Source: an uncultured bacterium (GTDB lineage: Bacteria; Patescibacteriota; Gracilibacteria; Absconditabacterales; Absconditicoccaceae). Taken from it: a stretch of 64,000 nt of DNA. The stretch lies in contig CAMJSB010000005.1 of the NCBI GenBank assembly GCA_946408385.1, forward strand, positions 22,435 to 86,434, given 5' to 3'. Below the pieces are notes generated by a model, which saw only the letters and a list, made by a program, of their open reading frames with translations, made no database searches and was not told the DNA's origin. A program made the translations under genes and the position numbers. Below are positions 9,212-44,574 of this stretch, piece after piece. Position 1 is the first letter of the stretch; each line of letters begins with the position of its first letter.

Positions 9212-9240
9212 AATATAAGCATTTTTCAAAAAAAAGTCAA
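9212..9240 (-). promoter_or_regulatory. Sigma70-type promoter
   Basis: On the minus strand TTGACT (9240-9235), a 17-nt spacer and TATATT (9217-9212) lie about 33 nt upstream of the small membrane protein start. Confidence 0.65.
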
Positions 9241-9281: not shown

Positions 9282-9343
9282 GCGAGAGTTTGTATAATTA
9301 ACTAATAGATTTGACTTTATTATTTCAATATGAAAAGAAAAAT

Positions 9344-17859: not shown

Positions 17860-18651
17860 TTAATCTAGGCTAAATACAGATAAAAATTCTGGCAAGTGAA
17901 GATAGCTTAAAGTTTTTTGTTGAAGTTTAGCTTTTTCCTGTTCTGAATATAATTTAGATGATCACGATAGTCTATTTCATTCATGGTCGTGTATATCTTG
18001 TAACAAATATATGCAATTTCATGTGTAACAAAATTTGACAATCCAAAAATCTTTTTTCAAAATTTTTAATATTTTTACAACTTCGGGAGAGAGCATTAAT
18101 GCATCAGTTTGATTATCGTAATTCGCTGAGAATCATCAGTAATTTACTCTTTTAGTCTTTAATTTATTATATCAAAATTTGGATATTTTTCGTATTAAAA
18201 CTAATAATAGAATTCCTCCTCAAATTGTGTTTAGCCAAAATAGAATATTCCAAAGTCCTCATTTGTTGTATAGCCGTGAAAGTAGTCCAAATATAGCCCC
18301 CCATCATAAAAATCACCATAATAATGGTAAAAATGATGGGTTATCTAGTAGATTCTTTTTCAGATCCAGAGAAAGTTGAAATATGTTTTTAAATTTAGGG
18401 TTGAAAAATCAGATTTTATAAATTATTCATTGTTCATTGATGTCGTGGTCGGCGGTTAATCATTCAAATTCACCCCCTTCTATAAAATAGTTATTTCCGA
18501 TTTCTTGGAAAGTGTATTTAAAATGGATATCTATGATTATAGGAGATATAAATCAAAGTTTTTGAAGTATTTCATTTTGATGCTGAAAATATAGTTTTGA
18601 TGGAGAAAACTTAAGATTTGTTTGATTATAATTTTGTGTATTTCCTAGCAT
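17860..18651 (-). CDS. Membrane protein, DUF3137-like
   Basis: 263 residues with two helices in the middle (about 108-125 and 135-155, rich in Trp/Gly/Leu). The C-terminal part, YDNQTDALMLSPEVVKIL then a short strand, is reminiscent of DUF3137 proteins, where a similar segment follows the helices; the match is weak. It is the first gene of a two-gene unit with the class 3 lipase, and the stop-start junction is TAAATG. A function in presenting or controlling the lipase at the membrane is only a guess. Confidence 0.55.
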
Positions 18652-18803
18652 TATTTACTACTTTTTATAAATTTAGTAGATATTAAATTATATTCAATTT
18701 TTGTATAAAAAGCAAAAAAATATTAACTTTTTTGAATTGATTATAAGTAGATATATTTATATAAAAAAGTCAATCTGTTTATGTGGTAAATACATCCAAA
18801 AAT

Positions 18804-18832
18804 TTGCAAAATTTTATGTTTTTGAGTATAAT
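18804..18832 (+). promoter_or_regulatory. Strong sigma70-type promoter
   Basis: TTGCAA (18804-18809), 17-nt spacer ending TGAG, TATAAT (18827-18832). It precedes the ncRNA by 7-8 nt. Confidence 0.8.
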
Positions 18833-18839
18833 ATATGCG

Positions 18840-19090
18840 AGATAAGTTACTTACCGTAAGGTTCTACCCACACAGTATTCCCTTATACTAGGTTGCTTAC
18901 CTCAAGGATGTATTCATCCTATTTTCATCTCAGTGTACTACCCATTAGACTGGGATGAGTTAGGATCAACCCGAATTGATTTTTTATGGATCTATGCCTT
19001 TGTCTTGAATTTTAAGGTAAAGAGATCGATCCATATAATGGATTGCCTTTCGGGTTGGTCATAAACGGAAGGGTTGCCTTCCGTTTTTTC
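18840..19090 (+). ncRNA. About 250-nt structured ncRNA of unknown family
   Basis: Bounded by a strong promoter and a strong terminator, with no ORF. Clear stems: AGTAT/ATACT (18875-18891), GGATG/CATCC (18914-18928), a 9-bp CATCTCAGT/ACTGGGATG, and a long closing stem TCAACCCGAA/TTCGGGTTGG enclosing GGATC/GATCC. The sequence CTACCCA appears twice, once in the loop of the 9-bp stem and once near the 5' end. I compared it mentally with tmRNA, RNase P, 6S and SRP RNAs; none fits. The 5' motif TAAGGTTCTACC-CACAC recurs near 2664. Confidence 0.65.
19064..19090 (+). terminator. Intrinsic terminator of the 18840 ncRNA
   Basis: AACGGAAGG and CCTTCCGTT pair around GTTG, followed by TTTTTC. Confidence 0.9.
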
Positions 19091-19194
19091 TTTTGTAGAA
19101 ATATTTTAAGGCTTTTGATAGATAGTGATTTTGCTTGTTTTTTTTGCATAAAAGTATATTAAATTATTTGTTTTAAATATGTTTTTATGTGCTG

Positions 19195-20166
19195 ATGGCT
19201 ATTTATCAATGAATGCAAAGTTTTAAGGAAGAAAATCAAAGAAAAACAGTTTTGTTGTTAATTCTTTTTCCTGCAGTTTTGTTTGTGATTTTTTGGGTGG
19301 TGTTTACTTTGTTTTTTACGAATACAAAGTCTTGGGATGATTGATTAAGTATGACGTTAGGTATTTTCCCATTGGTATTTATATGATTGGGTATTCGATG
19401 ATTGGTATCATTTTTTTTACAAAAAGACATTATGTTTTGACTTTCTGGAGCTAAGCCAATAACAAGAAAAGAAAATCCTGAATTATATAATATTGTTGAA
19501 AATTTATGTATTTCTAAAGGGCTTCCAATGCCAAAAATTGCAATAATGCAAGAACCTTGAATGAACGCATTTGCTACATGATGGAAAAAAGATGATTCCT
19601 GGGTGGCTTTTACATCTGGATTAATTCAAAATTTAGATAAAAAAGAAATTGAAGCTGTAGCTGGTCATGAATTAACTCATTTAATAAATAAAGATTCACT
19701 TTTGATGTATGTCGCTTATGTATTTGTAGGGGTAGTGAGTTTAGTTGGGCAATATATATTAAGGATTGGATATTCTGGTTCATCTTCTAAAAAGACTTCG
19801 TGAATCTATATTTTTGGTATAGCTTTCTTAGTTCTTTGATACTTATTTTATCCATTAATTAAATTGGCTATTTCACGTAAAAGAGAGTATATGGCTGATT
19901 TAGGGTCAGTGGAGTTGACTAGGGATAATCAGTCGATGATTTCAGCTTTGAAAAAAATCTCTAGCAATTCATATGTAGCTAAGGCGAATTCTTGAATCTC
20001 ATCATTTTTTATTGCAGAACCGAAAATTTCAGAATCACATGTAAATAATTATGTGTATTGAGTGGAAAATTATGCATCGAGTGATTGAAAAATAAAAACA
20101 TCGATATGGGATTCTCACCCTAGTATTCATGATAGAATTGAAAAATTACAAAGTTATTGATGATAA
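19195..20166 (+). CDS. htpX: HtpX-like M48 zinc metalloprotease
   Basis: 323 residues. Two N-terminal helices (about 20-42, 55-75), then the catalytic motif [13 protein letters not shown] (HExxH around residue 158) and two more helices (about 170-190, 205-225), followed by [15 protein letters not shown], which supplies the third zinc ligand. This is the M48B/HtpX layout: a membrane protease degrading misfolded membrane proteins. Length is close to E. coli HtpX. The C-terminal [14 protein letters not shown] motif is also typical. Two UGA codons precede the UAA stop. Specific name is by similarity. Confidence 0.88.
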
Positions 20167-44127: not shown

Positions 44128-44157
44128 TTATTATTAAAATTAAATTTTTTCTAATTC

Positions 44158-44229
44158 AGGGCTGGCAAGAATCGAACTCGCGACGCGCGGCTTTGGAGAC
44201 CACCGCTCTACCTCTGAGCTACAGCCCTA
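44158..44229 (-). tRNA. trnW: tRNA-Trp (CCA)
   Basis: A complete cloverleaf: acceptor AGGGCTG/CAGCCCT with discriminator G, D-arm GCTCAGAGGTAGAGC, anticodon loop CTCCAAA (anticodon CCA), T-arm GCGAGTTCGATTCTTGC. The CCA end is not encoded. The anticodon reads only UGG, which agrees with UGA being assigned to glycine and not Trp. It begins 10 nt after the RNase P RNA on the same strand. Confidence 0.96.
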
Positions 44230-44238
44230 TTTTTAATC

Positions 44239-44568
44239 ATCCAACCAATAAGCCTGATTCTGTGTTTAAAGCACGATATATCTAGCAAAGAGCATCAGTC
44301 TTTGATCTCGCACTCCTCCTAAGAGGAAGCTTGCATTGGGAAGTGGTTTGCCCCTCGAATAGCAATCTGCTAAACTGAGTAGAAGTAAGTAATCTAAATT
44401 ACTATCTTCACGTTGCATCTTTCATGTGAATAAAATCACACTAGTTTACGTTTCTGTGGCACTTTCATTTGAGCTGTCGCTGTCCAGCATCCGTGAGATG
44501 CCTCCCATTTTTCAATGTCAGGACTTTCCTAATTTTGGTTATCCAAAACTTTGTGCTTTGATTGAACA
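44239..44568 (-). ncRNA. rnpB: RNase P RNA
   Basis: Universal elements are all visible on the minus strand: AGGAAAGTCC (CR-I), CTGGACAGCGACAG-type P3/P4 region, GCCACAGAAA, TAGCAG and the 3' end ACAGAATCAGGCTTATT. ATAACCAA near the 5' end pairs with TTGGTTGGAT at the 3' end to form P1. Length is about 305-330 nt, depending on the true 5' end. It cleaves 5' leaders of pre-tRNAs together with RnpA (36999). A promoter is at 44575-44602, and tRNA-Trp follows directly. Confidence 0.95.
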
Positions 44569-44574
44569 AAATGG

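Follow-up and report, generated by a model that had tools for sequence, protein, structure and literature searches.

A single-copy structured RNA gene represents a new non-coding RNA family in Absconditabacteria

A segment of about 250 nt in the genome of an uncultured member of the Absconditabacteria, bounded by promoter-like and terminator-like sequences, raises the question of whether it is a discrete non-coding RNA (ncRNA) gene and, if so, to which kind of RNA it belongs. The window, which is the whole stretch of 64,000 nucleotides that we analysed, had previously been read from its letters alone, and this sequence-only reading had claimed a strong promoter, a terminator, several stable stems and a discrete ncRNA gene, all of which we recovered with coordinates (Table 1). 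The predicted transcript begins at ~18837-18840 and ends in the T-run of the terminator. Promoter-like matches alone occur at chance level in this AT-rich region (17 observed vs 18.8 expected); the position of this promoter is kept in homologs from related genomes, and the spacing from its -10 element to the RNA start is constant among them. The terminator, a 10-bp stem at 19063-19086 followed by the T-run, was detected by automatic scan in 27 of the 31 homologs, and the remaining four carry a hairpin and T-run farther downstream. Conservation thereby establishes the predicted boundaries of the gene. The segment contains stops in all three frames under code 25, with TGA read as glycine in the genes of this genome.

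Table 1. Features of the ncRNA locus, with positions in the window
Feature	Position	Strand	Evidence
GTCAA box, 58 bp upstream of -10	18769-18773	+	27/31 homologs; genome-wide excess in complete relative
Sigma-70-type promoter, -35 TTGCAA, 17-bp spacer, -10 TATAAT	18804-18832	+	sequence, scan, position kept in homologs
Structured ncRNA gene	18837-19091	+	fold z -9.9, homologs, covariation
P1 helix, 18839-18853 paired with 18889-18903	18839-18903	+	95.6% of cells paired; two-sided changes in 8/13 pairs
P2 hairpin, 18856-18861 paired with 18881-18886; loop contains CUACCCACACA	18856-18886	+	fold, alignment, covariation
H2 hairpin, loop UAUU in motif G-UAUU-C, abuts P1	18905-18920	+	two-sided changes in 5/6 pairs
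H3 hairpin, CUACCCA loop at 18938-18945, family motif UACCCAA	18924-18959	+	two-sided changes in 13/13 pairs
H4, either one long hairpin or a branched domain; its outer stem pairs GATCAACCCGAA with TTCGGGTTGGTC	18964-19060	+	fold, homolog folds
Intrinsic terminator	19063-19090	+	terminator scan, recurrence in homologs

The claimed stems amount to a fold far beyond chance: the 254-nt RNA reaches -94.8 kcal/mol compared to -56.8 ± 3.8 for its shuffles (z = -9.9), and all 31 homologs are more stable than their own shuffles (z from -4.6 to -10.3, median -7.3). The 13 pairs of P1 start where transcription is predicted to begin, and the inner part of the helix (ACUUA/UAGGU) is nearly invariant, with a conserved U-G wobble. 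The P2 loop carries the family motif CUACYACACA, present as CUACCCACACA in the window RNA, H2 takes the form GGAGGUAUUCCUCC in many relatives, and the H3 loop is nearly invariant across homologs. A long H4 hairpin folds in nearly every homolog, with stem sequences that differ. An extra, optional hairpin, UUGAGACGC...CGUCGAAAUUAU or close variants, lies in the interval between H4 and the terminator in four genomes (G009, G019, G060 and G061) and is common to two genera. Kissing contacts of H2 (GGUA) with H3 (UACC), and of the P2 loop with that of H4, were considered and rejected, as they show no covariation and are broken in two loci (L043, L058) and in one genus (g1).

The alignment of the 31 homologs indicates that this fold is maintained while its sequence changes. 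In the homologs 86.8% of cells are paired, compared to 73.9% in shuffles; two-sided changes affect 30 of the 38 core pairs (17.5 in shuffles), and 139 cells are changed on both sides (38.9 in shuffles), none of these three values being reached in any of 500 shuffles, in which relatedness nonetheless remains. Model-fitted alignments supply part of the covarying pairs counted, and they are biased in favour of the model. When the strands are shifted by 1-3 columns, pairing falls to 32-49%, and independent single-sequence folds give an identical architecture in 17 diverse cores, which together answer most of the concern over relatedness and alignment bias. The ncRNA fold is under selection, with compensatory changes that preserve a structure common to the homologs. 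The loops are the least variable parts of the alignment, even though the stems around them have been rewritten.

How far does this RNA extend? DNA similarity leads to same-genus relatives: three match in part and two almost completely, at 89-90% identity. With a covariance model built on the core (P1-P2-H2-H3), 24 of the 49 genomes of the same GTDB family (SR1/Absconditabacteria) yielded a single locus each, and models rebuilt from these matches raised this number to 34 of 49 genomes in 13 of 22 genera (G016 counted as a probable member), again with one homolog per genome. The conservation in related genomes foreseen by the sequence-only reading was thus found with the covariance model that it had proposed as a check. 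Weak model matches in G004, G031 and G067 were rejected on inspection because they are without the loops or domains, and nine genera of the family gave no match, reflecting loss or divergence. No member appeared in other families of the class in covariance-model scans, whose sensitivity outside the family is limited: across the class no more than 10 candidates were scored in each genome, and the scans at laxer settings took in 23 genomes from other families. A pattern scan of a named-species genome collection followed by a model check kept 15 loci, all from SR1, Gracilibacteria or Patescibacteria or from unnamed bacterial assemblies, while pattern matches in SAR86, Alphaproteobacteria and others were dropped for want of model support. 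The earlier proposal of an undescribed "RNA of these phyla" therefore stands as to an undescribed RNA of the SR1 family, but was too broad as to SR1/Gracilibacteria as a whole.

If the gene is real, is its product a known RNA in disguise? We scanned with Rfam 15 (4227 models), taking the gathering threshold of each family as the criterion for membership, and found a single tRNA as the only match in the window and nothing at the ncRNA; a permissive scan of the element returned only chance-level matches to eukaryotic RNA families, and at 20 homologous loci no Rfam model matched the element with E <= 0.5. The locus had been said not to fit tmRNA, RNase P, SRP or 6S, and this proved correct. That it is a strongly diverged version of one of these housekeeping RNAs accords with its size and single copy, and with the failure to find SRP RNA elsewhere in these genomes, yet we consider it very improbable and largely refuted. 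The genome has its own RNase P RNA gene (rnpB, RF00010, 89 bits) at 44233-44569 on the reverse strand of the window and its own, separate tmRNA gene (RF00023; G000:C5:2221-2593). The 6S model (RF00013) matched neither the ncRNA locus nor the homologous loci; 6S-like matches, all below the Rfam cut-off, occur elsewhere in five genomes; of these, G008 and G070 also carry the ncRNA. The SRP RNA models (RF00169, RF01854) gave no match in 40 family genomes, where the controls were positive, and the SRP GTPase domain PF00448 was above cut-off in none of the 49 family genomes, compared to 14 of 14 controls. The complete relative G032 gave the same answer when its six frames, read with code 25, were searched for motifs. 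With Ffh and FtsY undetectable, the family would lack the protein for an SRP RNA, consistent with the absence of the two SRP subunits that is reported for Vampirococcus and numerous further CPR bacteria (PMC8080830). An SRP substitute was also rejected on sequence, the ncRNA being without SRP features. Two side observations concern these other RNAs: the rnpB match falls below its gathering threshold (89 vs 100 bits) and sits beside a tRNA-Trp gene (44156-44229, reverse strand), and the five 6S-like loci (L095-L099, from G010, G008, G068, G031 and G070) have the motif GCYAYCCACCUU or close variants in common and may represent a diverged 6S RNA of the lineage.

Like 6S RNA, the ncRNA is of similar size, single-copy and equipped with its own promoter, but it consists of separate hairpins in series whereas 6S is one long interrupted rod; like SRP RNA, it is structured, of housekeeping size and single-copy, but it has neither the helix-8 sequence nor a model match, in a family without detectable SRP GTPases. 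OLE and raiA are orphan ncRNA families of bacteria that are long, highly structured, lineage-restricted and conserved. The ncRNA resembles them in all of these respects, but belongs to a different lineage, has another architecture and matched no Rfam model, either in the window or at the 20 loci. Our literature search found no paper describing it, and no ncRNA study of Absconditabacteria. Taken together, the lack of an Rfam match, the separate RNase P RNA and tmRNA genes, the coexisting 6S-like RNAs, the undetectable SRP components and the covariation argue for a new family of trans-acting structured RNA, and as an RNA family it is categorically new.

Another rival is a cis-acting leader (riboswitch or attenuator) of the gene downstream, and at first sight the window allows it: an M48 peptidase gene (19189-20166) comes next in the same orientation, with a divergent gene without known function (17860-18651, reverse strand) on the other side of the ncRNA, and the terminator closes the structure. 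Between genera, however, the neighbours differ and stand on either strand, which counts against a leader, while the promoter and start of the ncRNA, its fold and its terminator are retained; the downstream gene varies by genome and is often on the opposite strand, as with a convergent GluRS gene, and the family genomes compared have no functional partner gene in common in this neighbourhood. We regard a leader as highly improbable, and judging from this gene order the ncRNA is an independent and presumably trans-acting gene. The modular, optional 3' hairpin of some genomes could recall an RNA of a mobile or defence element, such as a guide or retron-like RNA, but one copy per genome, housekeeping neighbours in some groups (gltX-, nusA-, recJ- and serS-like genes, named from sequence only) and the absence of any match to the ncRNA in phage and plasmid records make this scarcely credible. 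A more serious contender is a base-pairing regulatory sRNA, which would bind G/U-rich sites in mRNAs through its C-rich loops, UACCCAA and CUACYACACA. The sequence-only reading had pointed to two copies of CUACCCA, one near the 5' end and one in an exposed loop, as a sequence that could pair with G-rich targets or bind a protein. Both copies exist (18864-18870 and 18938-18944, the second in the 8-nt loop of H3), but only the H3 copy is conserved, as UACCCAA; the 5' copy is the genus-specific form of CUACYACACA, unconserved outside the genus, so that the repeat is incidental and we dropped it as a functional duplicate. The exposed loops are nevertheless almost without G and their sequence is kept, and many sRNAs have their own promoter and terminator. 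Loop complements are, however, unenriched at the 863 translation starts of G032 (TTGGGT 0, TGGGTA 1 and TTGGTA 5 vs 5, 9 and 17 in coding controls), a result from one complete genome with the variant H3 loop UACCAAA, which lends no support to pairing with G-rich targets and speaks mildly against a broad antisense role. Loop and fold constancy across the order is, moreover, more typical of protein-bound RNAs, and we hold the sRNA reading to be rather unlikely. In the same genome, the Shine-Dalgarno-like GGAG is depleted at starts (22/863) compared to gene interiors (86/863), which suggests that Shine-Dalgarno sequences may be little used there.

The constant loops carried by covarying stems, the single copy in each genome and the lack of ties to neighbouring genes fit a protein-bound, trans-acting RNA, and we think it probable that the ncRNA is the product of a single-copy gene of a new Absconditabacteria family, a structured trans-acting RNA that presents loops on a scaffold to a protein partner. 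Transcription would proceed from the gene's own promoter, starting at the first base pairs of P1 and ending at its own terminator; P1/P2, H2 and H3 would then form a scaffold displaying the near-invariant, G-poor loops CUACYACACA, UAUU and UACCCAA, and these loops, along with the conserved wobble helix, would engage a candidate protein partner in a lineage-specific ribonucleoprotein. We infer the expression of the ncRNA, its binding of protein and the role of the particle from these features. The ncRNA family is conserved in an uncultured lineage of host-dependent bacteria, and its covariance model and precise gene ends make transcript, partner and role directly testable.

The promoter has a conserved element upstream. 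In 27 of 31 homologs a GTCAA box precedes the -10 element by 56-58 or 67 bp (-66 to -68 or -77 from the RNA start), the two distance classes being one helical turn apart. Across the genome of G032, GTCAA is overrepresented at spacings of 56 and 57 bp from TATA[AC]T (17 and 8 occurrences vs a mean of 2.8 per spacing), compared to at most 6 for a control word. The box is common to ~20 promoters of this complete relative, many of which precede surface, pilus or secretion genes. Among the proteins encoded behind these promoters are a T2SSE ATPase, a TraG-type ATPase, a RuBisCO large chain, an M23 peptidase and PKD, S74 and beta-propeller proteins. In the genomes with ncRNA homologs, the box was not seen at the promoters of rnpB or tmRNA. 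We rejected GTCAA as the -35 element of a divergent promoter, as a perfect divergent -10 occurs in only 8 homologs. These observations suggest that the GTCAA promoters, including that of the ncRNA, may form an activator-dependent class, and the box offers a first handle on gene regulation in Absconditabacteria. A bolder idea, which we consider improbable, is that the RNA forms the core of an Absconditabacteria ribonucleoprotein that would be co-expressed, through the GTCAA class, with surface, pilus and secretion genes and would act in protein export or in the cell-surface programme of a lineage that has lost SRP. The window itself holds a second GTCAA promoter, with the box at 9236-9240 and the -10 element at 9293-9298.
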